The notes beneath the pieces were generated by a model that did no database searches, was not told where the DNA came from, and saw only the letters and a program-made list of their open reading frames with translations. Position numbers and translations under genes: made by a program. Shown in pieces: positions 34,907 through 62,015 of a stretch of DNA of 64,000 nt (within the stretch, counting starts at the first letter, position 1; every line of letters starts with the position of its first letter). Origin of the DNA: Triatoma infestans (Eukaryota > Arthropoda > Insecta > Hemiptera > Reduviidae); assembly GCA_011037195.1 (NCBI GenBank), contig JAAEAF010000254.1:1-64000 (forward strand). The letters run 5' to 3'.

Positions 34907-35766
34907 GATTACTACTAACTACTAAGCGAGATTAGTTATTCTTTTGATGGATATAAAAAGTGGCGCTCTCGTGTGTACATAACATTAAAAAGCCATAATC
35001 ATTGACTTCTTAAAAAGGTGAACCTGGCTAATTACTGGATACTATTATTAACCCTCAAATATTGTTATTTAGCTAAATTATGGACAAATGTTTTAAATAA
35101 GAAAAAGAATATCGATTTGTGGCACGTTTCAACAAATGAATTTTTGGATACAGATTTAGTTCCTAAATCTTAAAATTTTTGTAATACAAGAACGAACTTA
35201 ACAGTTATTCTATACTCATTTTTTTATATTTTTATCAATGAATATCTCGTTAACATCATGCACACTTAACTGCTATAAATAATTACACTTGCCAACAAGA
35301 CCTTTGTCATTCTACGGACTTTATATATATATTATATAGTACAGCAAGTTATCTTGAGAAATGATTAGTTTTGTAATTACGTTTCAAAGCTCTTTTATTT
35401 TACAAAAGATAAAAGTCAGCTATATCACTAGTTTTTAAGTCAGTTAATCAAATCGAAAAAATAATACCAATTCTAGAACTCGGCATAATAATACGATAAG
35501 AACAATAGTTTTTCTACAACCATAAGCAGGTAATATGCCTCATTTGATTGAGAAACTGGCAGCAGTCTGCAGCACTGTAGAAAGTTGTGGAAGCAAGAAG
35601 GTATGAACTATTTGAAGAAGCGTTTTATTTCCTAACCTTAAAGCCAGTGAAGTATTGTGTGTTGAAGGACATGTTATTTAACATAAAGTATGGTTCTCTC
35701 GTGATTTGTTTGCTTATTATCGGAGAAAATTCAGTCTGAATTCTGTTTATAGGTTTCATTTGGCAC
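34907..35766. promoter_or_regulatory. Divergent intergenic region, COX18 / zinc-finger gene
   Basis: This separates the COX18 start from the first candidate exons on the plus strand and could act as a bidirectional promoter. A possible leader exon lies near 35535-35600, ending at the consensus donor aagaag|gtatga. Its ATG (35535) would be out of frame with the main product, so it would be an upstream ORF if transcribed. No clear TATA box is seen for either gene. Confidence 0.35.
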
Positions 35767-35795
35767 ATGTCTTCGGAACTGATTGGTGAATTGGG
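35767..35795 (+). CDS. Candidate first coding exon
   Basis: The exon begins after tctgtttatag (35752), carries an ATG at 35767 and ends ttggg|gtaata. It codes 'MSSELIGEL' plus two bases, which fit the one base left over at 36572. It is short, with a weak start context. Chosen only because it is open and phase-compatible. Confidence 0.3.
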
Positions 35796-38700
35796 GTAAT
35801 AATTTGTGATTTTCTTCTTACTAGAATTGTATGCTGTTAAAGAAAACTCGAAATATCATTTTAAGTTACATTCAGTCAGTCTTATTGATCTATATTGCTT
35901 TACAGGATTTACAGTAATTGCATTGGCTTTTTTATTAAAACATTTCATAACTCGGGTGGATGGTGTGTGAGGTTATGTATTGTCGAATTAAGTTTCATTA
36001 ACAAGGATTCGTTTTACTTAGGCTAATAAATTTTCTAATGAAACTGCTTCTTGGTCAACTATTAAAAAACCTTCAATATTGCTGAATTTTCATATAAAGT
36101 CAATATAACTTATAAAATCATAAAAATTCGTTTGTTTTACAGCTAATTGCTTTATTTGCTGAATTTAGTTGTTAGTTTCACTGTCGGCCATCTGTTTAAT
36201 ATATAATTTTCAATAACTTAATTTGAAATATTATTAACAGAAGATATAAAGAAAAAAATCGAACGCCATTATTTAAAATGCAATTAATTCATGAAATTAA
36301 CTTGAGAAATATTTATTTTAAGTTACTTTCCAAGGGAATTCTGTATTTCATTGCTTTTTATAAATATAGCATGTTTAATGTTACAATTTAGATCATAATT
36401 TTTTCTCACATTTCACAAATGAAGTTGAAAAGAGGTTTTGTTTAAACATGCAAGTAAAACATTTCTGTTTATATTTCTGGTTTGGTAATGTTAAGGATTT
36501 TTTTTTTAACCGGTCACATGATTTGGCCAGTAGTACGTTTGCATGTGTGTGTGGTGTATGATGTGTTACAGGCAAGTAGGCCTAACTATTGGCCAGAGTC
36601 CAGTATCTAACAACAACACTACCACTCCAGTTGGATGCACGAGCGACGAAAGTTCTCCAGAGAGGAAACGTCAATGGTCAGTAACATCTTCCGGTAGGCC
36701 TGTAAATCGGAAACGATTTCGGCACGCCTGGCTTATGTTTGATATATTCAAAGACTGGTTACGCCCACATCCAAGTCCGGAGCTAGCAAACTGTATCGTC
36801 TGCAATCGAGTAATCAAGGCAGGCAAAAGTGAACTGGAAAAACACGCTGCTGGAAAGAGGCATCTGAGCATGCTGAACGGAATGAACGCTGGTGGAGGCG
36901 GGGGAGGAGGAGGTGCAGCAGAGGGACGCCAGACTCGAGGTCATACTCGACATGTGGTCATACTTGATCAGGATGTGGTCGATGTAGATTCTTCATATGA
37001 TGGTCTGTATCTTATACAACTTAGTCCTTTACTATACCTATTTTGGTTAATTGACAAATATTTTCTCTGCTCAGTTTATTTGCAGTCCTAATCTATTAAA
37101 AAAGAGACAAATGTAGTTTTCATGTTGTGTATTATAAATAGAATTCTTTTCACTTCCCTAAAGATAAATATATTTGTATGTTCATTTATTTTTGAATGAA
37201 TAATTGGATACAAACTAGTCAGTTTTTGTTTAAAAAAATCAATTACTATTACCAAATATTAAGCTGTGGTAGATTTGTATTTATTTATTTATTTTTATAA
37301 AATTTAACAAATGGTCTATAGCCAAAATGGGTATTGGTATAATAATTTTATAACTTGAAGTATATTTCTGTTCCAAATATTAGAAAAAGTCTTTCACAGA
37401 AATGTTTTACTCACTTATTATTTTTTCCAAGAATAGTGACCGAAAATATTAAATTCAAATACAGAATCCTCTTTTTCATTTACGTTTTTAAAAGAATGTC
37501 TTTTCTCTTCTTTTTATCATTTTTACTACTATTTACATACTGTTTCGTATGTCAGTGATGAATTGTGATAAGGATTAGTGCGATTTAAATGAAATTGAGA
37601 AAGTCGATTTTGAAACAGAAAAGTGGTTGGTATGGGTCTGGACAGCGGCCTGGTACATTCTGAGGTGGTTGTCATGGAAGAAGAAATGGTTGTCTCCAGT
37701 GGCACACTAGTCTACCAGCAACAGTTACCAGCCGTTATTACTGCATACAATGGCAATGTGTTACTGCCTCCGGACTCCGCAGAAATTACTTCAACTCAGA
37801 GTTCTGAAATTACTCAGACTGTGAAATTTGAACCAACTTCTATTGATGAAATGGAACAGGATATAGCTTCTTCAGATGATGTATCTCAAGAGAAAGTTGC
37901 AGATTCCAATAGTGCAGTTAGAACCACTGCATTAAAACTTTATCCTAGTATGTCATTGGAAGAGCTTGGTTGCCACGACAATAACACAGTAATCGAAGAA
38001 GAGGTATGTTGTCAAGAAAATGATCCCACCGCGCCTCAAAAGCTAAAGACGAGAGATTCGATTTCAAACTTTTCAACGAGTTCGTTATGTAAAAGTTATG
38101 CATGCACTCCAGATCCAGGCACTGCTACTCGACGTGGTGGACCGGGACCAACTAAACGACATTCCCAGCGGTATCGCCTAGCCTGGGAACAATTTCCAGA
38201 ATTCAAGGACTGGTTGACATCTCATCACAATGTTTATAGAGCTGTTTGTAGGATTTGCAACAAAGTTTTACTGGCTGATTTTACAGTTATTAAAGCTCAC
38301 GCAACCGGTCGCAGACACATGTACCTCGCAGAAAAAGTTACAAAGGGAAAACAGCGCTTATCAACTAGCAGAGCGGAAACCTATTTGGAAGAGAATGTGG
38401 AAGGCTTAACTGTTTCTTCAGGTGATTGTAAACACTTATGGAACTCGGTCTGTCCTGGGTGGAACGATCCTTATTTGCAAGTCCCACCGACATTCTCAAT
38501 TTCATTTACATTTACCGATCGGTCCACCCAAGATCTGGCCGAACGGACTTAACTGTGCTCTTTGCTTACCTCTTCATGGCCACATTAATAGTAAAACAAA
38601 GCCGTCGCTAAATATATATTTACCTAAATTAGAAAACTTGCATGCCATTAATTTTGATGTAATGTAAAGCAACTTAAATTTCTCTGTTTTAATCCATTAC

Positions 38701-41700
38701 GGGACACTCACTAACAGTTAATAAATGTAAATATTGATTGCCATAAATAATCTTTTTCACTTTTGGCTAGTGGAGAGTTATTACTAAAGGCACAGATTTT
38801 TTTGGTTATACTATTTATTCATTCCTCTCTTTGCTTTTATGTAGTTTTTTATGTCTAAATTTACTTTGCTACATTAGTCCCCAGCATATCAATTTACAAA
38901 ATTAGTAGATTAAATTACGTTACATACATTCTACAAAAGGCACAAACAAGATCTCTATTCAATAAATGTACTCTAGCCATAAATCCTAAAATTATTTCAC
39001 TACTACTGTCATTATCGAATTAATTATAATAGATAAAAAACAGTTCATCTGCGTTAGGTAGAGAGTATGATTAGGGATGAGAGCAAGATCCAGACCAGGC
39101 GCTGCAAATCAATGAAGAAAGGAGAAAGATTTATTTCGATTAACGAAAGTTGCATTAACTTTCTTTAAGAAAAGTCTATACACGAATTTGAAAAAAGGAA
39201 CTTTGCAGTTCGCGGTCTGTGGTTCGGTCTTGGGGGGAGGGGGAATCTTATGATGACATCGCCATTGACAGAGGGAATCTGTCCTATCTGGCAGAGCAAA
39301 TTACATGGATTCTCTGAGAATCCTGCATAATCATATCTACGATCTTTTGACAAGCTCCGTTTGTAGAGTTTAATTTAAAAGCCCTGTTTATTTAATTTTT
39401 ATTTTTCTTTCTTCTTCAACTTCACCCTGTTTATATTAGTTTCGTAATGTTGATGTCTTATTTGACTTGAGGTTGCCTCATGAAAATTGATCAGTAGACT
39501 GTGTTCTTTGGCAACTCATTGGAATTGAGTAGTCACTTCATTTTGGTTTGTCGCTGTAATCTCTCTGTAGCTTCATTTCTGATACTGGATTTCGACCTAA
39601 TGTCTTTTAACATCTGTAAATTGTAAATATATATATATATTAAACTGTTTTTTTTTTCTCTATGCAAATAGATTTATAGGATCTCATTTGCTCTGATTTC
39701 ATCTGTAAAAAAAAATTTTGTTTTAATTAGCTTTTATTTCCAATTTTACGAGAGGGTTTTAAAGTATATTTCGTTTTGAAATTAGAAAACAAATTTAAGA
39801 TAAAATGATGTGACCAATATGCATCTGTGATACTTGCACATATTACTGGTAGTGTATCACCGGTTTCCTTATCCCAGACTAAGTCCATTTCTCAGGGGAC
39901 TACTGATTAACACAGTCTTAAGTTCGTCATCTCCAAACTGCTGCGTGCAAGCTGTTTCCTGAAATACATAAAGATATATTATTGGCGCCAGGTTGGAGCT
40001 ATAGGAGGTATGATCCAAAATTTCCCAGTGAAATTTGTCGCAATATTTCATTAGTTTGAGCTACAGTGTGCGGTCTAGAAATATCGTTCACAATTACGAT
40101 CCCAGTGTCGGCACCTTCTGTTCAGAAAACTTAGATGTGCTACCCAAAGCAAAAGACGGTGATTGCTGATTAGAGAAATCTTTTTTTTTTTAAATTTTGA
40201 GAATTTCGTGGGACATTTATGACCAACTCTTAGCTTATAGCTCCAGTGAATACCATCTATAGGGAAGGGAATAGCTAAGTGGCTAGCGTACTGAGCTCCC
40301 ACGCAGAGGACCCGGGTTCGAGTCCAGCTGTGCTACATTTAGATTTTTCTTCTTCTTACGAGCCTCTACAGCTCACTGTCCGGTGATGGACAGTGTTGTC
40401 TGTAACGAGAGAACACTGGTCCGGAGGCCGGCAATGCACTGAGAAGGCTCCGGGCTCCAATGACCATAGATGTTGACGCGCTTTAAATTAAAAAGAAATA
40501 CCATCTCTCTGAACATTTAAAAAAACGGATTGCACCACAATAATTTGGAGTTGATAATGAACGCAGTACTCAGTTGATCACTAGAACAAGGAAAGTGGTG
40601 ACTCGCTATCAGAAATTTGTGTAAGTTAATGGTGACCATTTGAAAAAAAAAGAATGTAATATATAGATATATTTTGGCTGTTAAAAATATATTTATTTTT
40701 TATAGTTTTATCTTAATTTCAAAAGGAATCTTACCTTAAAATGCATTTGTCATTATTAAGCAGGTGTTTGAGGAATAGTGCTGGACATTACTGCTTCTTC
40801 AGTATTCTTTCAGGGGAGCCAACATTTTGAGAGAGTTACAGTATCATTTTTATTCATTTCTTGATTTAAGAACAAACATATTTATTAAGAAAACATGGCG
40901 ATAATCCCCATTAAAAAGGGGTATTAGAGGAAGAGGTTCCTATTTCTTCCCATTCTCTTTATTGTTACATTCTTTCAGTAAATTATTTAAGTGAATGATC
41001 CCCACCAGAATATTTCCATTCGGTTCAATCAACCAACTTATATATTATATGTAAATTATTCTGCTGTGCTATAAACAAAGTTTTTATTTTAAACAAACTC
41101 ATCAACGAGAGGACCTTCACCAAAAATGTTTAATCATTTTGAAAGTCCCGGGCACCCGTGTATGCTATAGCTAGCTTCCAATCCTTTAGTTAAATGATTG
41201 AGCCTTTTGTAGTTTGTAGAGTTTTTTTTTTTATAGAAAATTTGCTTTCTTTGTTAGGGAAAAAAAATTAGGTAATGTGTAAGTGAAATAAAGATTTGCG
41301 CGCAGAAAGTGGAGCAATGAGCGGAGGAGCAGAAGGAGAAAGCAGTTACAAGGAAGACTATGACCGCAATTTGGCAGATCTGAACAGAAGTAACAGTGGA
41401 GCTGGAGGAGGAGGCACCGCCTCCGGACCTACTCAGTCCGGTGACAGCTCGCAGCCCAACTATACCACAGGCATCTATGTGCCCCAGCAGAGAAATCTAC
41501 CACCACCCCATAACCTCTCCAAAGCTGTGGGTATGCGAACTTATGTCTTGCTTTCTCTCTTTGAAATTATTTGTAATAGATGAATCTTTCCTTTCTAACA
41601 GATACAAGTTCTTTATAGAAGATACCAATTGGGAAGACACTGTGTTGATAGATTAGTTTCTGCAATTCGGATACAATTGCGAATGAGATTCATAAAGACT

Positions 41701-44700
41701 GGGGTTCTGTTAAAGCTTCTATATATTTTTCTCTAAAAAAACTTTTTAGAGAAATACATTTAAGTTAAAAGGGGACTTGAACATTATACTTGAAGTTGCT
41801 TCAACTTGCTCTTTTTGATTTGAGGAGAATAGAACGAAACGCTCTAATCAATTGGTTCAAAAAGAAATAAAATAGATTCAAAATTTAATTTACAACTTTT
41901 GTCCTTTATAAAATTTAGATGGGATGGAATGGACTCCATCAAACTTTGTTTAAAGTCGTAAGAAGATTGATGATCATTACTCAAGCTTTTAATATGTCTA
42001 TAAAAGGTGTTAATTGTGTAATAAAAAGATGTTATGTAATAAAAGAGTTTTAATTGTTTGTTCGCGAGAAGAGAAGCAGAGTTTATGATAAATTGTTTAT
42101 TTGGCCTAAAACGGATTGGTATATAAAATAGACCAATCCTCACTTCTAAAGGCAAACATAGTTGTTAAGCTGTAAAGGACTTCTGAAACAAAAACTTCCT
42201 TTTCTTCTTATGAAGCATTGCATTACTATTCTTTGATCCTGTCCACTATGTAGAGATGAGGCTGTAGCATTAATTTCATTTGCGCGCCGACGTTGAGAGT
42301 GCATCCAATTGAAACCTTGAAAAAAGGTTTATTTTCTCCAAACACGTTGGTAATAAAATAAATCGTTTCTTAGAGATGTCCAGCTGTTGGTTCCTTAAGA
42401 GAAGTTTCCTAACTTTGCAAACTCTTAATTTCACTATTTGCATACATTTTTCCCTATATTTTGTTGCTTAGAACAATTCAGACATTAATATCAGATATTC
42501 TGCACATAATTCTAGTTGTATTGCAAACTTTATCTACTTTTTCAAACTGTACATTTATTTACATATATTTTTCATGTATCTTCTGATTCTTATATTTTAT
42601 TTTCTAGTGATGAGTCCAGCACCGAATTGGAAAGCCACAGCCATTGTTAATGGTCACGTGACCAGACTTGATTTGAGCGATTATGTTGGAAGATACTTAA
42701 TACTAGTTTTTTATCCTCAAGATTTGTGAGTATTTGTTGGCACTAATTTATGTTTCAGAATAATGTTAGAAACTAATTGAAATTGTTGATTCTAAACTTA
42801 TTCACGCTTATTTAATTTAAACTTTTCATTTATTTGACCTTAACTGCATGTTTCACAAAAAAGTGAACGAGACGCAATTTGCTACAAGAAATGTCAGAAT
42901 TGGCGACGGCTAACGCAGCGCAAATAAATCGTCACATTTTTATAATTTTGCAAAAAATTTATAATCTTATCTTCTTCGGAAATAAAAAAATCTGGTATGT
43001 AACTACTTTCTTTTATTGCAATTTACGTAGCTATATAATTTAGTTCAAACAGATTTTTACTTAAGTGTAGATATTATATGTATAGCTGGAAGAACCTAAA
43101 CCAAAATATATGGTGAGAAACACTCACATAATTTTCTCTAACGTAACTGTGATAGCGCATCAGCCAACAAAGCTTGAGCTCTAGAATCCCCAAATATCAG
43201 TTTTTCTGGAAAAATGTTTCAAATAAAAGCGAATGTTTTCATCTATCTAGATAGCATTTCAGATTTAAGGAAAATCATGGTAGCTGTTTTCGAGAAAACT
43301 TCAAAAAAACTCAAGCCCAATTCTATAAAGTCCCGTTATTCGAATTTGTGTTTGGAATTCTAGCAATGATTCTAATATATCTTAATATTATATTATTATG
43401 TAAAAACCACAAATTCAGTGCCGGATTAAACCCTGTGTGATCCTTAGTCATTAGAGACCCCCTCGAAATATCATCCCATACGTTTTTGATTCTACCAACT
43501 TACAATTTTCATAACCAGTTTTATTACAGAAACTAGACACTAATTGTATTAAGATTTCTTTTGCTCACAAACTTTTTCAAAACGAATAGTTAATCAAATA
43601 AATAACTGGAGAAAAATTAAAATTAACTGCTCAGTAGTAAAAATTAATAAATTCCTAAGTCAAAAAAAAGGGTTATAACTGTTTACATTCAGAGCAACAT
43701 CATCTAGCGGCAAACATATGTATCAGAGGTCCGTCATATACTCCCCCTCTGGTTCACTGGTGGTTTCAGCAGACTAAGCAAAGACTCCAATCTTCTTTGG
43801 CCTACCTCTTTTCCTCTTTGGACCATGGATTTCTGCAGTGACGTTTCCCCTCCTTTTATGTTCGGGGTTATTTAGGAAACATGATATTTGTCTATACATT
43901 CACCTAACCATCAGTTCGTCCAAGTTCATCGGAAGTAGTGGAAATTTGTCCTAGAATCAAATAGGGACCTTCTTTCTGGGAACGAATTTGCTACAAATTC
44001 CCTTCGCTATGTCGCTCAAAATATACGTGCTTAGAAGCACTTTTTTTTTTCATCGACATATAGTCATTCAGCCAGCATCCACCTCAGCTGCTAGGATACT
44101 CCAAGTGTTACAGCTGCGCACCTAAAAATTACGAATCATGCTTACGAACTTTACATTCGCAGACAACTCTAAATTCATTCGTTCACTCTTCAAACACTCA
44201 TTTGCATTTTAGCTTTGAACAAACTTAGCTTAATTAACAACTTAAACTATGGGGTGGGGTACTCTATATTCCGCCACCCCGTCAATTCAGCTTATTCTAA
44301 ATTCACATTCACGCCAATAAATACATCCACACCATAAAACTCGACATATACATCTTAACATTCATACCTTTAATAAATTCGAAAATGCCTGTAACACTGG
44401 AGCACTGTTAGAAAATAGAATATCCTCTTATAGGAAAGGGGCAACCAGGTAATTATATAATTCTCTATACAAACAATCTCTTTCGCTTTCATATTTCTGA
44501 CATTCCATCATTATGTGTTCGAAATTTTCTTCCTCATTACATACTGTGCACATCGGAGTTGTTCATTGGGCTATTCTGAATAGGTATGCTCCGCATATAG
44601 TGTGATTCGATGTTAGGCTGCTAATAGTTGTTACTGCGTTTTTGTTCATAGAACTTCCTTTGAACCCTTCCAGCCCCAGGTAGTTTGACCGTTATTGCTT

Positions 44701-50700: not shown

Positions 50701-52082
50701 CAGTGGGCTCATCTGGTATTCTTGTTGTATACGATCTTTGTCGCTGGCTGGTATGGTGTATTGGGCGTCTTCAGTTTCAGCATCCGGGTTATATCTGCAC
50801 AGAATTCCATTCGACATGATGTAACCGCGGATGGTCCAGTTGAGGCATTCTCACCATCTGGAGTAGTTTCGAATGCGTCTATTATCTTCGCGACCCAGAG
50901 TCAGCCAGTTGTTCAAATCGCAAGCTTTCGCAGGACTTTTTCCCGAGTTTCATGCTGATGGTGCAAATAGAGATTTCATATTCGTTTTCTGTGGTGAGAA
51001 CCGGTCTGGAAGGTGTGTGTGCCACTCTGTTGACTTTGCCAGGGGTGTAATCTATTTTGATACCATATGTCTGAAGCGTCAATGCCCACGAGCGCCCAGT
51101 GGGTGACTTTAAACTTATCAGCCACGGAGGGACTGATGATCTGTTCTTATTAATACTTGTGAACATTCAGTATAGCCCCGAAAACGTTGTACGGTCCAAA
51201 CTACTGCAAGAGCTTCCCTTTCGGTAACCGTATATTTTCCCTCTGCCGATGATAACACTTGCCAACACAGGACTTGCCAAGCGGATCTGTGCAATAATTC
51301 TTAGTATTTTATTGGAGCATTCACTAAAAAATAAGACTGCTTACTATTATAATTGCTGATAAAACTAATATAACAATTTAATTTTGTATTGTAGAGTTTT
51401 TCAATGTTATTACTAATGAGGTACAATTTAAAAGCGTCAATTAATCTATTTTTATTTCTAATCAATTCACTGCAATTTTGTGATTCCCAAAAATGTATTG
51501 CACCTATTTTTTCCAATGAACATTTTAAAAACCGGCACCAATTAAAAGGAATCTGATCAAAATGTATTAAATTTACCAGCCATTCAAAACAATTTCGGGA
51601 TACGATCACTTTTCACTTTGAGTAGGATTATCCACCATCCGATCATCCTTTTAAATATAAAGAAATCTAGATGTATTCTACTAACTTCATGTCGTAGAAC
51701 AGCATCAGGGGTCGATTTTGGAAGTTTTAGGAGGGATTTAAAATATTTTATTTGAACTTTTTCTAGGATGTCACCGTAAGGAGCTGCCCAGATCTCTCGA
51801 ACCAATTTTCTAGTCTATAATCGTGCGGTCCATTGTTTTCATTACACAACTAGATAACGCGATTGGTCTATAAGAAGAGGATTCGTCTTTTAGCTTATTA
51901 TTTTTTAATACCGGTATGACAGTATACACTTTCCACTCTGTTGGGAAGGTACCCTGTTTCCACAATGAATTGTATAATATTAATAATTAATAGAGTGTAT
52001 TTACTTGAGGTGGACAATAACAACACAATCATCAAAAAAGAAGAAATGCAGTTTTTTTATTTATTTATTTATTATATTTCTA

Positions 52083-52123
<41 letters not shown>

Positions 52124-55100: not shown

Positions 55101-58100
55101 TCGAAATGCTGATGATTCGAAAAGTACTAATCATTCAAAAATTTAAATATTTCAGTGATATATTTATTAAATTGAGAAGAATAGTCCCTCTGCAGCAAAG
55201 TGTACTTTGTAGGTGGCCAATGTACGCCACATGTTGCAACAAAATTTGCCTTGCCGGAAGGAGGGCGCTGTACTCCCAAAGCAGATGATCCACCGTCTGG
55301 GGAGAAGTCTGGTCACAATAACATACTGGGTTGGTAGAATGTTGAACCTATGAAGATAGGCTGCCATTTTGCCATGCCCTGAAAGAAGTTGTGTCAGCTT
55401 GTAACTGATTTTGAGATGTTCGATTTCAAGACGCACCGCAATGGATGGAAAAAATCCCTTGGTCAGTTGGCCCGTCAAGGAGTCTTTCCACAGCTTTTCC
55501 CAATGATCTAAGCTGAGTTGTTGGATCCAGTCATTTAAAGCAGTTAGCGGAAAATTGTTGTAATTGCTTAGAATGTCCTTATCTTTGGAGGCCGCTTTTG
55601 CCAGCTTTTCTGCACGTTCGTTACATTCCACACCAACAAGGCTTTCACCCATGTCATAGAGATAAGGCAACGCTGCCTGAGTCTAGATAGCCTAATTCTA
55701 ATAGCTTCAATGAGCGGAAGATGGATAGCAGTGTTTTTCAGAGAGTCAATAGTTATGCGGCTGTCTGTTGCGATTCTGATTTTTTCATCAGAACATACAT
55801 GTTGTTCCAGCCAATCCAAAGCCTTCACAACTGCCAGCTGCTCCGCCTGGTTGTTAGAACAATCTCCATCTAGCCTACATTTTTGTTCTGCAACTGGCTC
55901 TCCCTTCCTAAATGCTACAAAAGCACAACCGACATTATCTCCTTCCTTGCTTCCATCGGTAAATATCTCCAGGTCGAGCGGGGTCTCAAGATCCATGCTA
56001 ATGGCCGGAATAATCGTGGATGCTGCAACGTTTTGAAATCCGTAGGCCTATCCAACAAAGATCCATTCAATCCGTCTACTATTTTACCGTCTTGTATTTT
56101 ATCAAGGAGTATCAAATCCTGTATTTGCAAACAGATCGGCTTTATCCCAGCAATCACCCAAGCCGCATTATAAGAAATAGTCCGGTAGCCCTTAATTAAA
56201 CGTAGCAAAAACACGCGCTCTCAAGTTTGCTTCTGTTTTTCTTTAGTTTTAATGCTGACTGCCATACTGGGACTGCATATAACAACAGAGGCAGAAATGC
56301 TCCCTTGTAAATCACAGTCAATGCTTCAGCTCCTAGAACCCCCCAATGCACTTTAGCAGCTCTAGAAAGTACATTTACAAACTGCCAGCTTTTGTCGCAA
56401 ATGTAACTGATATGTTCGCCCAACTTAGCCTTCTGTCAAATATAATTCCGAGATGTGAAAACTAAGTTTGCTCTGTGCAAGTCTGTGTTGTCACACTGTC
56501 TGAAAAACGCATCCTGAAGATGGGCGAACGCCCGAAACCGGTCGATGACCACAAAATGAAGCAGGCTACCACGGAAAATGTCTCTGATAATTCCGAGATA
56601 TTTAAGATTTTCTACCATTTCTAATTTTTTGCCGCCCAAATATATTGATACATCCTCCGACTTGAGACTCAATCTTTTAGAAAGGTACATAATTTTCGAT
56701 TTATTTGTATTGAATGTAATTTTGTGTTCGGCAGCCCAAGTTTCAAGATTCGTAAAACCCTGTTTCCATCGACACTTATTTCCAATGCAGTTTGTCCTGC
56801 CACTAATAAGAAGAGATCATCTGCAAAAGCAATTGCTTGACTATGACCAGGAAAAGTAAGCCTTAGTAACCTATCGTTCATTAAAATCCAAAAGCAGGGC
56901 CCGGAGCAAGATCCTTGTGGACAGCCTCTAGTTGCCTGGGCATCTTTTCGTAAGGAATTTAAGCTCAGACTAACATTTCTACCTGAAAAGTAGTTTCTCG
57001 AGAGATGGTAAAGGTTCCTCGGACATTTCCTTTCTCTCAAGCTTTTTAAAGTACTAGGCCACCAAGCAGCATCGAAAGCTCCCTCTACGTCTAATGATAT
57101 AAGAAGAACTTCCCACCTCATATCTAAGTATTCATTAATAAATTCAGTGGCTGATTTTAATGCACTAACCGTTGAAGTCTGAGGTCTAAAGCCAAACTGC
57201 CTGCCAGACAGAAGACGATTAGAGTACATATGATACGTAATACGATCAATCATTAATTTTTCAAGAACCTTGCCTGCTACCGGTAATAAGCTTATAGGCC
57301 TTAGCCTGGACAAATCATTCATTTCCTTCTTTCCATTTTTTTCCAGAATAACTAAGACAGCTTTCTTCCAGCACAATGGAAACTGTCCTCTGGATAGACA
57401 CTCAACATAGATTGAAGTAATAGCATCTGGATAAAATTCGAATACCTTCTTTAATATCTCAATTGTCAGACCATCCCAACCTGGAGCCTTATTAGAACGC
57501 ATACTTTTCAAAACCCTTTCAACTTCGATTCTTGAGAAAGCCACATCATTATGTGTATCCATCTCTAAATCCATTTCTGCCCTCATAATCTTGGGAATCT
57601 GTAAATCTTGAAGCAAGTTATCTTGTGGAACAAATTTATCCAGGATAACTGCAACGGTTTTCTCCAAATCGGCCGTATATTCACCATTCTCCTTCAGCAC
57701 TGTGGAAATGCAAGTACTAGATGTAAGTTTTCCAGCTGCCAGATAAGTAAAATTCCAGGGACTGTTAGCTGATATGCCACTACAAAATGCTTTCCAAGAT
57801 TCTAGTGTGGCATCATTTATTTTGGTTTGATACAAACGCCTTAAATCGAAATAACATTTTTTTCTGGCTTCACGAAGAGATGGGTTATTATAGGTTCGTT
57901 GGTATAATCGTCTGCTGGCATTAACCTTTTTTCTCAGGATATTTAAGTCTTTATTCCACCAACTAACAGTTTTTTTGACCGGTCTTTCTCTCTTCCGATT
58001 AGCAGGAAAGGATCTTTCACATGCCATAATAATTTTATCATAAAACTTCTCAACAGATTTTTCTAAACTTTTGTTACTGCGAATAAAGTCAACCAAACAG

Positions 58101-61100
58101 CCATCTAATCTTGTCATATCTATTGTTTGATCCTTTATATTAACCAGATTGCCTAAATGTTTATGTAACTCCTCACGAAATTTTTCTCAGTTAGGTTTCT
58201 TAGCATTAAATCTGAAAATAGGAGGATCTGATGTAAGAACGTTCATGCAGCACAAATTGACTTGGAACATTAAGGTTGCCTGGTCGGATAAGTTTTCTTC
58301 TAGAGGCTGACACCATTCCGCAACGTATGGGAGCAGGGAAGTGGCAGAAATAGTTAGGTCAATGTTACTAGAACCCCTGATACTTTCAAATGTTGGCAAT
58401 CCACTGGTTCGTTCAATATCGTTAATGAACGACACGCTGTGTAATCCTCTAGAACATGACCTCTGTCATTAGTCACTGTATCGTACCAATTAATGGACCT
58501 AGCGTTGCTGTCCATTCCTATAATTAATCTCCCAGAAGAAGCGGACAGAAACTTGTCTATACCCTCCAGACCTGATTCGATTTGCCCATCATATGCCATG
58601 TAGATACTACCGACAACAGAAATGAAAATTACCCACAGTAAGTTCTACTAGAACTCTATCTTCATTAGAAACTTGTGAATAAATGACCGCATCAGTTTTC
58701 GTATTAATAATAATGACTGCAGCTCTAATCCTATTTTCACCTTTTTTAAAAATGTTACAGTAATTTGGAAAAGAAGAAATTTTGTTTGCAATAGTATACG
58801 GTTCCTGAATAATAACGACGTCTACATTATTTGATTTAATAAAGCTTTCCAGAATGTGGTGCGCTCTATGGGATCTTCGAAGATTTAATGGAACAAAGCG
58901 AATGTTGGCTAAACTGTTGATACGATAATTTAAACTATTGTGATTAAGAGAGTTAACATTGTTCATTTTTTTGTTTACATAATATTTGTAAGTAGGACAG
59001 GTTATACTGAGCGCAGCATGGTTGGTATTTACTTTATTACCTGCAGGTGAATATTGATTGTACTGAGTACAATTTACACAGGAAAATTCATCTTCTTTAG
59101 ATTTATATTCCTTCAATGAATGGTTAGCAGAGCACAAAGGACAGATGATTGATTGCATTGTGAAGTATGATGATTAAATTTGTTACAATTAAAGCATCGA
59201 ATTGCTGAAATGTGATCAACAGCTTTACATTTATTCCAATACATCTTTATTTTTCTTTCTAAAAATAATTTTCTTAAGTTAGGATTAACTTCTACTACTA
59301 AAAATCTGTACCGCTTCGGTTCTGCCATAAATTTTTTACATGAATTATATCACTATCTTGAAATAGTTCTTCATTCTGTGATCTAATTATTTCTAACACA
59401 TTTTCTCTTGTAAGCTCCTCCGGAATGTTACAGATTTTTAGCCTGGGTAAAAATTTGTTAACTTTTTCCGCTTGTAAATTCTTACTTCATGTTGAATTAA
59501 TTTCGTTGCAAAGTGTTTGAATATCATTTCTATCGGAACATTCAACGATTACTCAACCATTAGATATCCATCATGCTTTCTACACAATTTTTAGGTTACA
59601 TGGATTTAACTTCTCTTTTATTATTTTCCTAGTTTCCGAGCTACTTTGCCCATTAGGCTTAATAATAGCCTTAAAAGTAACTTCATGAATTTTACTGACT
59701 AACCTCTTAGTTGATTAATGTACCTTTTCGGCGTAACGCACTTTCTGTACCGCAGGTCTAACCTCTTTTATTCTATGTTTTCTTTTAATTCTATAATTCG
59801 TGATTTGTAGTTTAATTGCACTTCATTTAAAATTTCAATTAATTTTAAAATATCGCGTTTTAATTCATTTTTTAGATTACCGCTTACAACAGTTACAACA
59901 TTTCTTAACAAAGTGATCGCACTATCAAAACGCTCTTCATCAACGTCCGCCATCTTTCTCTCTCTCTCTCTGTCTCTGTGTTTTTGTTTGTGAGATATAT
60001 ATATATAACTGTATTTTTTTGTTGGCTAGTCGGCTTGGTGTGATAAAGTAACAGAAGAATACAAAGAAGAATTTTTTTTTTTTTTTTCAATTTTTCACGT
60101 TTGTGCGGATATTGTTTGCCTTCTTCAGAGGAACCCATAAAAGTAATAGAAAAATTTAGTGATGTTGAAAAATGATAATGAAATTTAGAAAAATTGTTCA
60201 CATTCATACAGGCCTTAAAAAAGGAATTTAAAATAAATTAATGTTCACACTGTCAGTATTAGTGCTGTATTGCCGTAAGAAGATAATAAGGGTGATGGTG
60301 GGAGGTAAGAAAAAACTGTTTTTCAACTGTACGGTGGGGAATGATGGATACATATTATATGCTTATTGTGTATACCGAAACCCTATCACCCCGGGCCGAC
60401 TAGCCAACAAAAAATTTAAAATATAAGTTATTAATATAACTTCTTTGGAATGTTAAGTGAAAGTAATTGCATTAAAGCTTTCTATTTCACAAAGTGAAGT
60501 CAAAAATAAAAAGAAAAAAATAACACATAAAATAGATGTAATATAAACACAAAACACATTATTAAGAAATACAACAAAACACAATAAAATAAGCAATATA
60601 GATTCTACCACAAAAAAATGGGACACATATTTTTATATATAGAAACACAATAACTCTGTACTCGCTTTAGTATTTTGATTATACTAACTAAATGTTAGTA
60701 TTGGTTTATAACTAACTAAATGTTATTTTCAAACTTAAAAACTCCAAACTTTCTTGAGAATAAAAATTGAAAGCAGTAGAAATTCATTTAGTGTGGCTTT
60801 CTGGACAAATCAGAAAGACCAACATTGTAATGATTTCTTTTTTATTAATCCACATTCTTTTTAATTTTATCGTTAAATTATTTTATGCTTAACATTAATA
60901 ACAGAAAAATGTCATTTCTGTTGAGGATGCCGTCATAGCAGTCGTTCTTACAGAGGAAGACATAGCGTTCGATTTATGGCATAACGCTAAGGTCTGTTCC
61001 ATCGAGCAATCGTATATTTTTGGCAAACTGGGGATATGGTCGGAGCCCAGACGACCATTTATTTCGCTCTCAGTCCTACGCAGTCGGTTTCTTACCACTC

Positions 61101-62015
61101 CATTGCCCAGAGATAACTTACCAGAAGGGGAGTAACGGTTCAAAAACGATTGCAAGAAGTAAGTCTGAAGACTAGGAAAAGTAGGTCATCAGGGCCAGTA
61201 CAAGCAAGAATCATCATCGTGTGCTTACACGATTAATGCAGTACTGCCGTGAGAGGAGACTAAGAATAGTAAGGCTACCCTTGGATTTTCTCTTCCTGGG
61301 AGCTTCTACAGCTCACTGTTGGTAATGGGTTATCTGAGGCACAGACACCGCCCGGATGGCGGCAATGAACTGAGATGGCTCTGAGCGCCAATAACTACAG
61401 ATGTTGACGCACCTCCAATTAGAAAAAACTATAAAGAAAGTGACTTTTCATATGATTAACCTAAAATTGATGTTATTATTACTACTTTTATTTTGAAATG
61501 TTGTAATTGTTTATTGTTTTAGTTCAAAGATTTGTGCTAGCGAAATAAATGCTTTGAGTGATCGCTCTTATGAGTTCCGCTCTATTCAGACAGAAATTGT
61601 AGCTTGTTCAGTGGACAGTCACCTGTCTCATCTTACATGGTCTAAACTTTCACGAGCTGATGGCGGTGTTAGCCTTCCTAAAATCCCTCTGATAGCGGAT
61701 CCTACCCATGCCATAGCCAAAGCTTATGGAGTATTGTTACCAGACAAAGGACATACTCTAAGGTAGTTGTGGCTACTCTCTGCTATCATTTCAAATGATA
61801 GTTAATCTATTTAGAAGTAGTTAATGGAGTCTGAATTTGGTTTTGGCAGAGCTCACTTCATTATAGACAAGCGAGGTATTCTACGGCACATGAGTATTAC
61901 AGACACATTGGTAGGCCGAGGTACTGATGAACTACTTAGAATTGTGAAGGCATTGCAATATGTCGATGAAGTTGAAGAACCGGTACCCGCTGATTGGACA
62001 CAGCCAAACGAATAA
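35767..62015 (+). CDS. Candidate zinc-finger/peroxiredoxin fusion gene (gene-level entry)
   Basis: Seven exons can be joined in one frame: 35767-35795, 36572-37002, 37624-38421, 41306-41530, 42608-42725, 61523-61762 and 61850-62015. That is 2007 nt and 668 aa. Order: BED-like zinc finger 1 (C84, C87, H101, H107), a Gly run, zinc finger 2 (C362, C365, H379, H385), a Ser/Gly/Pro/Gln-rich linker (about 420-490), then a peroxiredoxin domain (about 496-668) with peroxidatic C538 and catalytic R614. Seen directly: open frames, splice signals and matching phases. Inferred: that all exons belong to one transcript. The zinc-finger part would give DNA or chromatin binding, the other part thiol-peroxidase-type chemistry. 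The alternative is two genes, the second starting at Met 41317 (245 aa). The first exon and the donor at 37003 are the weakest parts. Confidence 0.45.
36572..37002 (+). CDS. Exon with BED-like zinc finger 1
   Basis: After gtgttacag the frame encodes a Ser/Thr-rich stretch, 'RPVNRKRFRHAW', 'FDIFKDWLRPHP' and a zinc finger CX2C-X13-HX5H: 'CIVCNRVI' ... 'KHAAGKRH'. A run of eight Gly and an acidic end, 'LDQDVVDVDS', follow. The W..F..F.DWL lead-in before the finger is typical of BED-like fingers found in transposase-derived and chromatin proteins. The donor at 37003 (gtctgt) is atypical and uncertain. The open frame extends to 37091 if no splice occurs. Confidence 0.7.
37624..38421 (+). CDS. Exon with BED-like zinc finger 2
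   Basis: About 265 codons. The N-terminal two thirds are acidic and Ser/Thr-rich ('EEEMVVSSGTLVYQQQ', 'FEPTSIDEMEQD'), like an activation or interaction region. The C-terminal part repeats the finger of the previous exon: 'YRLAWEQFPEFKDWL', then 'CRICNKVLLADF' ... 'HATGRRH', again CX2C-X13-HX5H. The donor ttcag|gtgatt at 38422 leaves phase 1. Without splicing the frame stops at 38552 after 43 unremarkable residues. The acceptor aaaag at 37623 is the one that fits phase 1. A cag acceptor at 37618 would need another donor. Confidence 0.75.
38553..39838. other. Intronic/intergenic stretch without recognised genes
   Basis: AT-rich. A (TA)n run lies near 39629. An open frame on the minus strand (39353-39165) has no family resemblance. 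Confidence 0.4.
39840..40080 (-). mobile_element. Mariner-type transposase fragment
   Basis: On the minus strand 'EILDHTSYSSNLAP' (about 40020) corresponds to the 'HxPYSPDLAP' motif before the third catalytic Asp of mariner transposases. It is followed by 'FQETACTQQFGDDELKT'. Stops and substitutions (SPD to SSN) show it is dead. No inverted repeats were found. Confidence 0.6.
40261..40498 (+). repeat. tRNA-derived SINE, copy C (most complete)
   Basis: Box A TAGCTAAGTGG (40272-40282) and box B GGTTCGAGTCC (about 40315) are both intact. The body includes the self-complementary 'cactgtcc' / 'ggacagtg' hairpin, 'gagaacactggtccggaggc' and 'atgcactgagaaggctccgg', and ends in 'gacgcgctttaaattaaaaa'. 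It lies in the intron between the zinc-finger and peroxiredoxin exons. Confidence 0.9.
40499..41305. other. Intronic stretch before the linker exon
   Basis: No coding sequence or repeat family recognised. The last 90 bp are T/A-rich, as expected before a 3' splice site. Confidence 0.45.
41306..41530 (+). CDS. Linker exon upstream of the peroxiredoxin domain
   Basis: The acceptor ttgcgcgcag ends at 41305. The frame is open through the acceptor, and the phase fits the donor at 38422. An internal Met (41317) could be a start for a separate peroxiredoxin gene. The product is low-complexity: 'SYKEDYDRNLADLNRSNSGA', a Gly run, then 'GIYVPQQRNLPPPHNLSKAV'. The donor gtatgc (41531) leaves phase 1. 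I do not recognise this segment in known peroxiredoxins. Confidence 0.6.
41531..42607 (+). other. Intron of the peroxiredoxin gene (1.08 kb)
   Basis: Bounded by gtatgc and tattttctag. AT-rich, with no transposable element recognised. A minus-strand open frame at 42155-41844 is unremarkable. Confidence 0.7.
42608..42725 (+). CDS. Peroxiredoxin exon: N-terminal part of the thioredoxin fold
   Basis: 'MSPAPNWKATAIVNGHV' and 'LDLSDYVGRYLILVFYPQD' match the start of 2-Cys peroxiredoxins (AhpC/TSA family). The acceptor is tattttctag, and the donor gtgagt at 42726 splits Phe111 (short-form numbering). The Pro of the PxxxT/SxxC active-site motif is the P of 'FYPQD'. Confidence 0.88.
43680..43890 (-). 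pseudogene. Possible LTR-element pol tail and polypurine tract
   Basis: The minus strand encodes 'HGPKRKRGRPKKIGVFA' then a stop. After about 25 bp comes a purine tract, agaggggga (about 43745). A basic tail before a polypurine tract fits the end of an LTR-element pol, but no LTR pair or enzyme domain is visible. Confidence 0.3.
44621..45125 (-). pseudogene. I-like LINE RNase H domain
   Basis: 'CIYTDGSKTDNKVGCAMYD' (about 45090) has the first catalytic Asp. 'SELVAITMALKYI' has the Glu, 'AILSDCLSAVTKL' the second Asp and 'HCGLLHNETLDALAKEA' the fourth motif (about 44750). All four catalytic acids are recognisable despite one frameshift near 45000. It would degrade the RNA of the RNA/DNA hybrid. 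Confidence 0.82.
45161..46620 (-). pseudogene. I-like LINE reverse transcriptase remnant
   Basis: 'FPPQWKEYLIIPILKPNK' and 'SYRPISLASCLMKIFEKMI' (about 46360-46230) are RT fingers. 'FPKSRYGFRKGYSV' follows near 46150. The palm with YADD is missing or unreadable. 'VVLFTRKRRLNIPN' comes near 45830, then 'YLNILRSISHKKWG' through 'ADRFVLRLLNY' (45690-45380). This region is heavily frameshifted. Confidence 0.72.
46919..47730 (-). pseudogene. I-like LINE endonuclease domain
   Basis: 'LNILQWNARSAVINKGSLEM' (about 47725-47665) holds the first Asn. After a frameshift come 'KPCIVGGDFNVHSRAFGS' (about 47345), with the Asp and Asn metal ligands, then 'KSAVDITFCSAFLSP' and the catalytic 'LGSDHFSIL' (about 47115). 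These are the APE-type endonuclease signatures that nick the target. The 233-residue frame ends at a stop at 46919. The RT linker continues in other frames. Confidence 0.82.
47818..48070. repeat. CA/TA-rich microsatellite inside the I-like LINE
   Basis: Alternating purine-pyrimidine runs (tatatacaca, acatacatat) over about 250 bp lie in the gap between ORF1 and ORF2. Confidence 0.9.
48336..49615 (-). pseudogene. I-like LINE ORF1 (Gag-like, three zinc knuckles)
   Basis: The Met at 49615 opens 211 codons of RNA-binding-type sequence ('SIGKLLHSNYPEISKNIYSV', 'KVYIPRYLLQRRGIIRG'), up to a stop at 48980. In the shifted frame, 'CKKCLRFGHFKDQC', 'CERCGGDHDIAEC' and 'CVNCGSSSHPASNINVC' are three knuckles (about 48960-48800). 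The C-terminal part (48674-48336) is in another frame. ORF1 would coat element RNA. Two frameshifts inactivate it. Confidence 0.8.
49661..49895. repeat. Purine-rich (A/G) tract
   Basis: Nearly continuous A/G with 'gaaaaag' repeats lies at the 5' side of the antisense LINE. It may be part of the LINE 5' UTR or simple-sequence expansion. Confidence 0.7.
49940..51290 (-). mobile_element. Gypsy fragment: RNase H end to integrase
   Basis: On the minus strand: 'LTLQTYGIKIDYTPGKVNRV' and 'AHTPSRPV' (about 51070, end of RNase H), zinc-binding-region pieces (about 50650), and the integrase core 'KITSDNGVQFVSG' (second catalytic Asp, about 50410) and 'HPSTNVVERRNRDLK' (catalytic Glu, about 50310). It fades through 'FGRELRNPDNVKHDMKRVLD' (about 50130). 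Frameshifts separate the blocks. No LTR or PPT was found. It is antisense within the peroxiredoxin intron. Confidence 0.78.
51300..51965 (-). mobile_element. LINE scrap with internally deleted RT
   Basis: 'GTFPTEWKVYTVIPVL' and 'SSYRPIALSSCVMKTMDRTI' (about 51950-51835) are RT fingers. They join directly to 'LVREIWAAPYGDILEKVQIK' (about 51810) and 'YFKSLLKLPKSTPDAVLRHE', which belong after the thumb, so palm and YADD are deleted. The tail has 'IPFNWCRFLKCSLEKIGAIH'. It directly follows the Gypsy fragment. Confidence 0.7.
52083..52125. repeat. (CT)n(AT)n microsatellite
   Basis: About 12 CT units are followed by about 10 AT units. Confidence 0.95.
52174..53405 (+). mobile_element. Tc1/mariner-superfamily element with long inverted repeats, right end truncated
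   Basis: The left end, CAGAGTGTCCCATTGAAACG after TA (52172-52173), is typical of a mariner terminus. The region 52357-52555 is the reverse complement, with modest divergence, of 53223-53405, so the inverted repeats were about 380 bp long. The right one lacks its outer ~185 bp. Between them lies a deleted transposase on the plus strand: 'SVNVWCGMVGDETIGLYIRP' (about 52910) and 'YANFIRQEYNS', then a broken 'QQDGCPAHYA' (about 53056, second catalytic Asp). The final DDE region is decayed ('IFFFGDISKIL', about 53188). It is not autonomous. Confidence 0.82.
53406..53759. other. AT-rich spacer
   Basis: 'aattatata'-type low-complexity sequence with no recognised feature. Confidence 0.5.
53760..54680 (-). 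mobile_element. R1-like LINE 3' fragment (RNase H and C-terminus)
   Basis: Minus strand: RNase H with 'ERSVGCAIVVYSSGGVGVFE', 'MCSNNQVELFAILSALKWL', 'SIIKSDSMASILSL' and 'HLTWIKAHCGIEGNERAGH'. After a frameshift comes the C-terminal block 'AISGHGKNLAYLQRFGL' and 'CSCSENGPIQSWDDIIFDC', stopping at 53817. The first catalytic Asp is lost: the TDGSK motif reads YYGSK. It is related to, but clearly diverged from, the larger element at 55.16-59.96 kb. The 5' end is truncated at the RNase H. Confidence 0.78.
54681..55159. repeat. (ATT)n and T-rich low-complexity block
   Basis: Two blocks of TTA/ATT repeats (about 54893-54960 and 55033-55060) and T-runs up to 15 nt lie between the two R1-like LINEs. 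They may be the 3' tail of the downstream LINE. Confidence 0.8.
55568..55996 (-). pseudogene. R1-like LINE RNase H domain
   Basis: 'LEIFTDGSKEGDNVGCAF' (first Asp, about 55970), 'SNNQAEQLAVVKALDWLE' (Glu), 'RIATDSRITIDSL' (second Asp) and 'SMTWVKA' precede a frameshift near 55660. Beyond it, 'VGVECNERAEKLAKAASKD' completes the fold. The usual HxG motif reads as broken at the shift. Confidence 0.78.
56196..56690 (-). pseudogene. R1-like LINE RT thumb/connection, split by a short insertion
   Basis: 'LSLKSEDVSIYLGGKKLEMV' and 'ENLKYLGII' end at about 56587. After a 132-bp insertion the frame resumes 'FDRRLSWAEHISYICDKSWQ' and 'VNVLSRAAKVHWGVLGAEAL'. Joining across the insertion restores the normal 'YLGI.FD..L.W..HI' motif. 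Confidence 0.8.
56455..56586 (+). mobile_element. 132-bp hammerhead-like element, copy 2, with 13-bp target-site duplication
   Basis: The element is flanked by the exact direct repeat ATAATTCCGAGAT (56442-56454 and 56587-56599), and removing it and one repeat restores the LINE frame. It contains CATC (56510-56513), CTGAAGA (56514-56520), an extra T, a GGGCG/CGCCC stem (56522-56533), GAAA (56534-56537), ACCGGT (56537-56542), C and GATG (56544-56547). This is the order of a type I hammerhead ribozyme with a minimal stem III. Copies 1 (11205) and 3 (63922) are less complete. Self-cleavage is unproven, and the extra T and tiny stem III are deviations. Confidence 0.75.
56669..58117 (-). CDS. R1-like LINE reverse transcriptase (long intact frame)
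   Basis: 482 codons without interruption. The linker has 'VSWWNKDLNILRKKVNASRR'. RT fingers show 'MRSNKAPGWDGLTIEILKKV' (about 57490) and 'LRPISLLPVAGKVLEKLMID'. The palm shows 'LISLDVEGAFDAAWWP' with the first catalytic Asp (about 57090). 'ATRGCPQGSCSGPCFWILMN' and 'AIAFADDLFLLVAGQ' follow, the latter with the FADD form of the catalytic box (about 56830). The frame then shifts at about 56690 in the thumb. The core looks chemically complete, but the element lacks an intact thumb and endonuclease, so it is unlikely to be mobile. Confidence 0.85.
   Translation of the reverse strand: MTRLDGCLVDFIRSNKSLEKSVEKFYDKIIMACERSFPANRKRERPVKKTVSWWNKDLNILRKKVNASRRLYQRTYNNPSLREARKKCYFDLRRLYQTKINDATLESWKAFCSGISANSPWNFTYLAAGKLTSSTCISTVLKENGEYTADLEKTVAVILDKFVPQDNLLQDLQIPKIMRAEMDLEMDTHNDVAFSRIEVERVLKSMRSNKAPGWDGLTIEILKKVFEFYPDAITSIYVECLSRGQFPLCWKKAVLVILEKNGKKEMNDLSRLRPISLLPVAGKVLEKLMIDRITYHMYSNRLLSGRQFGFRPQTSTVSALKSATEFINEYLDMRWEVLLISLDVEGAFDAAWWPSTLKSLRERKCPRNLYHLSRNYFSGRNVSLSLNSLRKDAQATRGCPQGSCSGPCFWILMNDRLLRLTFPGHSQAIAFADDLFLLVAGQTALEISVDGNRVLRILKLGLPNTKLHSIQINRKLCTFLKD
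58187..58989 (-). pseudogene. R1-like LINE endonuclease, catalytic His replaced
   Basis: 'IRFVPLNLRRSHRAHHILES' and 'VDVVIIQEPYTI' (about 58900-58790) contain the first Asn and the Glu. 'RLIIGMDSNARSINWYD' (about 58530) holds the Asp/Asn/Ala motif. 'SSNIDLTISATSLLP' follows in a shifted frame, with 'LEENLSDQATLMF' (about 58285). The final motif is normally SDH; here it is SDQ, losing the general-base His. There are two frameshifts. Confidence 0.75.
58990..59955 (-). pseudogene. R1-like LINE ORF1 remnant
   Basis: It opens at 59953 with 61 codons ending 'IIELKENIE', then is heavily broken. It is recognisable again from 59328 ('PKRYRFLVVEVNPNLRKLFL') with a knuckle, 'CFNCNKFNHHTSQC' (CX2C-X4-HX4C), and a second partial one, 'CVNC' ... 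'HAALSITC', near 59080-59010. The frame carrying the second knuckle runs without a stop into the endonuclease. Confidence 0.65.
60015..60414. mobile_element. 400-bp MITE with 31-bp terminal inverted repeats
   Basis: The left terminus ttttttgttggctagtcggc (60015-60034) continues to 60045. The right terminus is its reverse complement (60384-60414) with about three mismatches near the inner end. The inside is AT-rich without coding capacity. It sits just upstream of the R1-like LINE 5' end, next to a (TC)n(TA)n tract (59949-60008). The superfamily is not clear; a target-site duplication was not securely identified. Confidence 0.82.
60415..61254. other. Intronic stretch without recognised gene
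   Basis: AT-rich to 60.9 kb. A minus-strand open frame (61155-60895) shows no family resemblance. Confidence 0.4.
61255..61428 (+). repeat. tRNA-derived SINE, copy D (head truncated)
   Basis: The body 'cttctacagctcactgtt', 'ggcggcaatgaactgagatg' and 'actacagatgttgacgcacc' aligns with copies A-C, but the tRNA head is missing and the middle is diverged. It ends in 'ccaattagaaaaaact'. It lies about 95 bp before the peroxidatic-Cys exon. Confidence 0.75.
61523..61762 (+). CDS. Peroxiredoxin exon with peroxidatic cysteine
   Basis: Follows an intron of about 18.8 kb (acceptor ttattgttttag). Joined to the previous exon it reads 'FYPQDFSKICASEI'. The peroxidatic Cys (61533-61535, C115 of the short form) and the Ser of the PxxxSxxC motif are present, but the usual VCPTE is changed to ICASE. 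It continues 'TEIVACSVDSHLSHLTW', 'GGVSLPKIPLIADPTHAIAK' and 'YGVLLPDKGHTL'. The GGLG motif linked to overoxidation sensitivity reads GGVS. The donor aag|gtagtt splits the catalytic Arg codon. Confidence 0.9.
61850..62015 (+). CDS. Peroxiredoxin terminal exon, resolving Cys missing
   Basis: Acceptor gttttggcag. The first base completes Arg191 (AG|A). It reads 'AHFIIDKRGILRHMSITDTL', 'VGRGTDELLRIVKALQYVDE' and 'VEEPVPADWTQPNE', then TAA (62013-62015). In typical 2-Cys enzymes the C-terminal block is VCPAGW. Here it is PVPADW, so the resolving Cys is replaced by Val, and no YF tail follows. If active, it must work as a 1-Cys enzyme or with an outside thiol. A strong donor, ccag|gtatgt (62023), lies just after the stop, suggesting a 3' UTR intron. 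Confidence 0.88.

Follow-up and report, generated by a model that had tools for sequence, protein, structure and literature searches.

Where peroxiredoxins are known to pass peroxide signals to transcription factors, they do so via separate proteins. Peroxiredoxins are recognized by the site PxxxT/SxxC, which bears the peroxidatic cysteine, together with an arginine, BED zinc fingers are defined by a CX2C-Xn-HX3-5H spacing with aromatic residues ahead, and mutually exclusive exons occur in clusters such as those of Dscam and Mhc. Here we describe a gene from Triatoma infestans (Reduviidae) in which these elements appear to be combined. It lies at 35767..62015 of a stretch of 64,000 nucleotides, called here the window (assembly GCA_011037195.1, contig JAAEAF010000254.1, positions 1 to 64,000, forward strand), and would encode a peroxiredoxin preceded by one of two alternative zinc fingers.

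The locus resembles each of these systems in part. With Peroxiredoxin-4 (Prx4/PRDX4) it shares sequence (structure 3qpm), fold and, within the same genome, the places and phases of introns, but it has neither the Prx4-type N-terminus nor the YF tail nor, in the window, the resolving cysteine, and a finger exon and a linker stand in front. Both fingers have the BED spacing and the aromatic residues ahead of it, but they fall below the Pfam cut-off and are fused to a redox enzyme. Among solved structures, the finger profile matches those of the U1-C/ZFa type (H-x5-H) best, though weakly; the conserved W-x8-W stretch of the window's fingers falls outside the matched part. As in Dscam and Mhc, one of several adjacent related exons is picked and taking two or none breaks the frame; here, however, what is exchanged is a zinc finger ahead of an enzyme. 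Finally, PRDX2 and PRDX4 of human cells are reported to reach the nucleus and to hinder the binding of HIF to DNA with no need for catalysis (PMC4872721); these nuclear peroxiredoxins are separate proteins with no fused finger.

Anatomy of the fusion gene

The gene is read on the plus strand as a ten-residue exon 1, either of two zinc-finger exons, then a linker exon and three peroxiredoxin exons, a predicted anatomy that we regard as near certain. Its parts are as follows (a slash marks a splice point; proteins from databases are cited by our numbers, P0001 and so on):

35767..35795, plus strand: exon 1, common to both isoforms; encodes MSSELIGELG and ends in phase 2; donor GGG/gtaata
36572..37002, plus strand: alternative exon A, 431 nucleotides; finger kind A, FKDWLRPH...CIVC...AGKSELEKH...H; donor ATG/gtctgt
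37619..38421, plus strand: alternative exon B, 803 nucleotides; finger kind B, WEQFPEFKDWL...CRIC...H...H; donor CAG/gtgatt
41306..41530, plus strand: linker exon of low complexity, phase 1 at entry and exit; contains the ATG at 41317
42608..42725, plus strand: peroxiredoxin exon 1, VMSPAPNWKATAIVNG...FYPQD; tblastn 92% to P0001/P0002
61523..61762, plus strand: peroxiredoxin exon 2 with the peroxidatic cysteine (PQDF-SKIC) and HTLR at its end; from tblastn and the active-site table
61850..62015, plus strand: peroxiredoxin exon 3 with the stop; EEPVPADW in place of a resolving cysteine, and no YF tail; from tblastn

A preliminary description of this DNA had already seen two exons each bearing one CX2C-X13-HX5H finger, as the pattern search also finds, and a linker exon at 41306 that is open through its acceptor with AhpC/TSA exons downstream on the same strand. 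It counted four peroxiredoxin exons; three encode peroxiredoxin, the exon at 41306-41530 being the linker.

The evidence for the predicted gene is protein homology rather than phase. Isoform A (exon 1, 36572-37002, then 41306 onward) has 402 amino acids and matches P0001 of the assassin bug Rhynocoris fuscipes (Reduviidae) at 77% over the full length, while isoform B (exon 1, 37619-38421, then 41306 onward) has 526 amino acids and matches P0033 of Rhodnius prolixus, which we take to be another member of the Reduviidae, at 83%, again over the full length. At the level of single exons, exon A gives a tblastn match to P0001 with an E value of 5e-54, and exon B was found at 77% identity (query 11-278) in the search of the insect's own genome. 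The ten residues of exon 1 are all present in P0001, P0003, P0005, P0012 and P0033; nine are kept in P0013 and three in P0017 from Lycorma. Agreement of phase is by itself weak evidence, because many AG sites yield open frames: when all other junctions are kept unchanged, 18 of the 53 AG sites in 37.3-38.1 kb open the frame with both finger exons in tandem and 10 open the frame from exon 1 to exon B.

Two boundaries deserve comment. The N-terminus of P0033 is MSSELIGELGKVVGMGL, and splicing exon 1 to 37619 yields MSSELIGELG-KVVGMGL, which matches that start; the acceptor of exon B is therefore placed at 37618/37619 instead of the 37624 proposed before, and the exon grows from 798 to 803 nucleotides. 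Exon A was set to 36572-37002, with the donor GT at 37003, as its length of 431 nucleotides demands. This donor had been called weak, and it is backed indirectly by P0001, whose ...DSAYD runs directly into the linker and matches GAT G/AA AGT GGA.

Since both finger exons are 3n+2 nucleotides long, exactly one of them is usable: A and B together (with acceptor 37619) reach a stop at codon 184, and with neither the stop comes at codon 29. Each is also found alone in relatives, A in P0001 and B in P0033. The sequence thus supports mutually exclusive finger exons between a common first exon and a disordered linker, and two predicted proteins that differ only in the finger exon.

In window B against P0033, identities are 53/54 in the finger region, 168/174 in the peroxiredoxin (97%) and 58/75 in the linker, with 125/182 before and 25/29 after the finger in the flanks of exon B. 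In window A against P0001 they are 51/54, 163/174 and 44/72, with 33/47 before and 18/35 after the finger in exon A. The degree of conservation is thus similar in the fingers and in the peroxiredoxin. A pseudogene or a chance frame was also considered, and is ruled out by this conservation.

Relatives in Hemiptera and ticks

Protein searches returned 32 proteins in the first round, 367 in the second (120 listed) and 16 in a search with the tick finger. The hemipteran group examined comprises 33 proteins, four of them (P0003, P0013, P0014, P0022) placed there by sequence, and the tick group 17, of which P0042, P0045, P0047, P0054, P0130, P0131 and P0133 were so placed. The finger W-x8-W...CX2C-X13-HX5H occurs in 29 of the 33 hemipteran-group proteins (the others being P0002, P0004, P0023 and P0029) and in none of the 83 other proteins fetched. 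All 17 tick-group proteins have a finger, and 16 join it to a peroxiredoxin (P0131 has no peroxiredoxin). A single gene in which the linker at 41306 connects a BED-like finger with a peroxiredoxin, as suggested from the DNA alone, is thus borne out by the 29 hemipteran-group and 16 tick-group proteins that hold both parts. The accompanying statement that no such protein had been described holds for the open-licence papers searched (subscription papers were not covered), in which neither searches on the fusion nor searches on the finger types turned up a description of a finger-peroxiredoxin protein. Sequence databases do contain such proteins, labelled for example "peroxiredoxin-4-like isoform" or "uncharacterized protein".

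In six species, Cuerna, Macrosteles, Nilaparvata, Clastoptera, Diaphorina and Bemisia, one peroxiredoxin tail is found with two kinds of finger. Within each of the first five, the tails are identical over 218-237 amino acids; those of Bemisia are identical over 179, followed by one inserted residue, and share their first 11 residues as well. Several entries from Cuerna, Graphocephala, Clastoptera and Lygus are presumably translations of transcriptome sequences; the fusions would then exist as RNA. Among side observations, the whitefly (Bemisia) protein P0023 has the tail of P0024 and no finger, and a third kind of 5' cassette appears in P0022 of the aphid group and in P0038 of Kerria, both of which have a kind-C finger. 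A lenient tblastn of the window for such a third finger exon matched fingers only at exons A and B. Cimex lectularius has apparently two loci, on contigs of equal length (1,706,060), one with a kind-A finger and a peroxiredoxin and one with a non-A finger and a divergent peroxiredoxin (P0012, P0025); here the alternative exons may have been parted into separate genes in tandem.

Four psyllid proteins carry two fingers each. P0035 and P0036 have one kind-A finger and a second that is B-like by pattern but stands in the finger tree with kind A and the ticks, whereas neither finger of P0037 and P0039 falls into that group. Their existence speaks for a 668-amino-acid protein with both of the window's fingers, as first proposed. 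The 2007-nucleotide frame behind that proposal can indeed be spliced open, but only with acceptor 37624, five bases off the site implied by P0033; the latter puts the two fingers out of frame. Openness itself counts for little where a third or so of the candidate acceptors (18/53) allow it, no two-finger protein was seen beyond the psyllids among the hemipteran proteins examined, relatives have either A or B, and the second finger of P0035 and P0036 groups with kind A. We consider the tandem arrangement ruled out by the Rhodnius junction and the frame arithmetic, and give it hardly any weight. The same very low weight applies to a split into two adjacent genes, one for the finger that ends at a stop past 38.42 kb and one for the peroxiredoxin that begins at the ATG at 41317 or later. 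Exon B does stay open to a stop at 38550, the ATG is in frame, and the finger-less Rhynocoris model P0002 would fit such a peroxiredoxin gene. However, by eye this ATG corresponds to a valine in P0001 and a leucine in P0033, and homologues continue across the junction, finger and peroxiredoxin standing together in the 29 hemipteran-group proteins; on these two grounds the separate-gene model was rejected.

For the ticks, two separate fusions, one in Hemiptera and one in ticks, are favoured by the sequence comparisons. In the finger tree, the tick finger falls together with hemipteran kind A and two of the psyllid second fingers (99/97, on 54 columns only). The tick peroxiredoxin of P0047 is 61% identical to P0068 and P0069 (named mitochondrial, that is, Prx3), 58% to the Prx4-type P0040 and 48-49% to the hemipteran fused proteins; against the present genome, its summed exon matches are about equal for the Prx4 gene and the Prx3-like gene and lower for the fused gene. 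The peroxiredoxin tree sets the tick and hemipteran groups apart, while the test of a single clade does not reject one origin (p-AU 0.129). The search with the tick finger kept 16 of 48 candidates, all named or placed as ticks; its reach must be short, because it missed the hemipteran proteins.

Origin of the peroxiredoxin and nature of the fingers

The window's peroxiredoxin matches the whole AhpC-TSA domain of Pfam (97.8 bits for a cut-off of 26, E 5.6e-28) and has the peroxidatic site PQDFSKIC and the arginine. It is not a typical 2-Cys enzyme, since the resolving cysteine is absent (EEPVPADW) and the protein ends in ADWTQPNE with no YF tail; the reference rows P0040, P0069 and P0082 have this tail, and none of the printed fused rows shows it. 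Counting 33 hemipteran rows (the window included, P0029 omitted) and 15 tick rows (P0130 and P0131 omitted), the peroxidatic cysteine is kept in 31 and 14, the arginine in 33 and 13, and a resolving cysteine at the aligned column in 20 and 0, respectively; some ticks have a cysteine one residue further. Two mirid fused proteins, P0005 (Lygus) and P0008 (Nesidiocoris), have an aspartate for the peroxidatic cysteine (FSKVDASE) and keep both the peroxiredoxin domain and the fingers. Catalytic losses were also seen in P0132 (Ornithodoros) and P0133 (tick group): a proline replaces the cysteine in P0133, and the arginine has become asparagine in P0132 and lysine in P0133. Because of the losses of the resolving cysteine, and of the peroxidatic one in mirids, peroxidase activity would not be essential everywhere.

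The same genome holds, elsewhere, a Prx4-like, a Prx1/2-like and a Prx3-like gene (L009, L010 and L011, named by similarity). The introns of the fused gene at AV/ (phase 1), DF/ (phase 2) and LR/ (phase 2) agree with the Prx4 gene in place and phase. All three genes contain the DF/ intron. Neither L010 nor L011 is interrupted at LR/, where both are continuous; L010 also lacks AV/, and in L011 an intron apparently ends a few codons from that place, at a position not exactly fixed. L011 has in addition a break at TPRK/SGGLG, found neither in the Prx4 gene nor in the fused gene. The Prx4 copy reads to GQDT and then meets a donor-like GTAAGT, so its tail should sit in a further exon; the fused gene ends before that point. 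The peroxiredoxin tree puts the hemipteran fused domains in one clade with Prx4-type sequences (99/92), query positions 48-241 match 3qpm (named Prx4) with E 2.3e-60, and by eye no Prx4-type secretory signal is apparent, the N-terminus being MSSELIGELG followed by the finger exon. Given three introns that coincide with those of the Prx4 gene in position and phase, one of them missing from both other genes, the peroxiredoxin part is probably an intron-bearing duplicate of Prx4 with neither the endoplasmic-reticulum signal start nor the C-terminal tail.

The assignment of the fingers is less sharp. Both have the CX2C-Xn-HX3-5H spacing, and in relatives the Pfam zf-BED family matches 5 of the 21 members of alignment A2 (best E 5.1e-5) and 4 of 24 in another set (best 0.007). 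Weak matches to zf-U1 were seen in 5 of 21 members (best E 0.019) and to SF3a60/Prp9 in 10 of 24 (best 0.001). Against solved structures, the finger profile first finds ZFa, a double-stranded RNA finger protein (E 1.3e-4 for the whole sequence, 0.16 and 4.2 for single fingers), and then U1-C (0.02). By eye, the fingers are flanked by basic stretches. Genome searches with P0033, P0001 and P0047 found no repeated finger family, only the window's two fingers among the 15-16 candidates scored per search.

Proposed function and surroundings of the locus

Our best explanation, held with moderate confidence, is an alternative-finger gene with a peroxiredoxin part probably derived from Prx4, whose product would be a peroxide-responsive, oligomerising nucleic-acid-binding protein. 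The protein would reside in the cytosol or the nucleus, and its peroxiredoxin part, with the peroxide-reactive cysteine and the arginine, would form dimers or rings like Prx4 and thereby present several fingers at once. Oxidation of the remaining cysteine by peroxide may then alter the ring or dimer state, or make a mixed disulfide with a partner, so that the avidity of the fingers for DNA or double-stranded RNA would track the redox state, while splicing would pick the finger and hence the targets. In mirids, where the cysteine is lost, a scaffold role alone could remain, and the reported action of PRDX2 and PRDX4 on HIF is a precedent for such a role.

Several points weigh against this reading. 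The zf-BED match of the window translation is below the Pfam cut-off (14.4 bits versus 20.6); the resolving cysteine is gone in 13 of 33 hemipteran rows and the peroxidatic one in mirids; only LR/ clearly singles out Prx4, DF/ being in all genes and AV/ lying near an imprecisely placed intron end in the Prx3-like one, and in the fold searches, whose hits were taken up by peroxiredoxins, the VIA-align comparison ties Prx1, Prx2, Prx3 and Prx4 chains. Among the database proteins examined, no single reduviid species showed both isoforms together, and finger-less models exist, namely P0002 (180 amino acids, from the gene of P0001), P0023, the partial P0004 and the short P0029.

Two alternatives keep the anatomy and change the role of the finger. 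It may be an RNA-binding finger of the U1-C/ZFa kind, the protein acting on RNA and not as a transcription factor; the structure matches led by ZFa, and the weak zf-U1 and SF3a60/Prp9 hits, speak for this, but zf-BED remains the stronger Pfam match in alignment A2, all these matches being weak, and the W-x8-W stretch ahead of the cysteines is what we take to be a BED-like trait. We regard an RNA role as possible, though on the unlikely side. The finger could otherwise be a handle for nuclear entry or partner docking on a nuclear peroxidase that does not bind nucleic acids specifically, in keeping with the catalytic cysteine and arginine retained in nearly all rows and with the basic flanks. 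This we find doubtful, as several hemipteran groups retain, as alternatives, two conserved kinds of finger that differ from each other, which points to two different ligands, and mirids that lost the cysteine still have fingers. The nucleic-acid-binding reading can also be taken further, to a direct switch from peroxide to genome that arose on two or more occasions (in Hemiptera from Prx4, in ticks from another peroxiredoxin, perhaps Prx3-like), with a ring-borne finger array, a peroxide-set oligomer state and splice-chosen targets; in this full form we think it rather unlikely. The Hemiptera with swappable fingers have plant-feeding, predatory or blood-feeding habits. The fusion may let a cell couple peroxide sensing directly to DNA or RNA binding, and a gene that has swappable fingers in Hemiptera and a look-alike in ticks offers a natural and genetically tractable test of peroxiredoxins acting directly at DNA or RNA.

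The long intron of the gene contains remnants of retroelements, identified by domain matches:

42726..61522: intron of 18.8 kb with retroelement remnants on the minus strand
46919-47623, minus strand: endonuclease remnant
55568-56047, minus strand: RNase H remnant
56669-58186, minus strand: RVT_1 (reverse transcriptase)

An integrase fragment on the minus strand of the same intron stays below threshold (22.2 bits for a cut-off of 32.6). Upstream, frames similar to the COX18/Oxa1 mitochondrial insertase lie at 32218-34918 on the minus strand, head to head with the fusion gene and about 0.85 kb from exon 1; joined, the pieces reach 33.8 bits for 60KD_IMP, just below the cut-off of 35, and singly they give at most a very weak match. 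A two-way promoter near 35 kb shared by the insertase and the fusion gene is possible. A scan of 34.8-36.6 kb for bacterial-type promoters gave 9 sites, versus 10.7 in shuffles. ARAGORN (for tRNA) and Rfam scans of the window found nothing. Two similar stretches, at 40250-40490 and 61290-61430, read CTTCTACAGCTCACTG or close to it, then GGCAATG, ACTGAGA and GATGTTGACGC (by eye), and the first is preceded by a tRNA-like box, GGTTCGAGTCC; they are perhaps a tRNA-derived short interspersed element.
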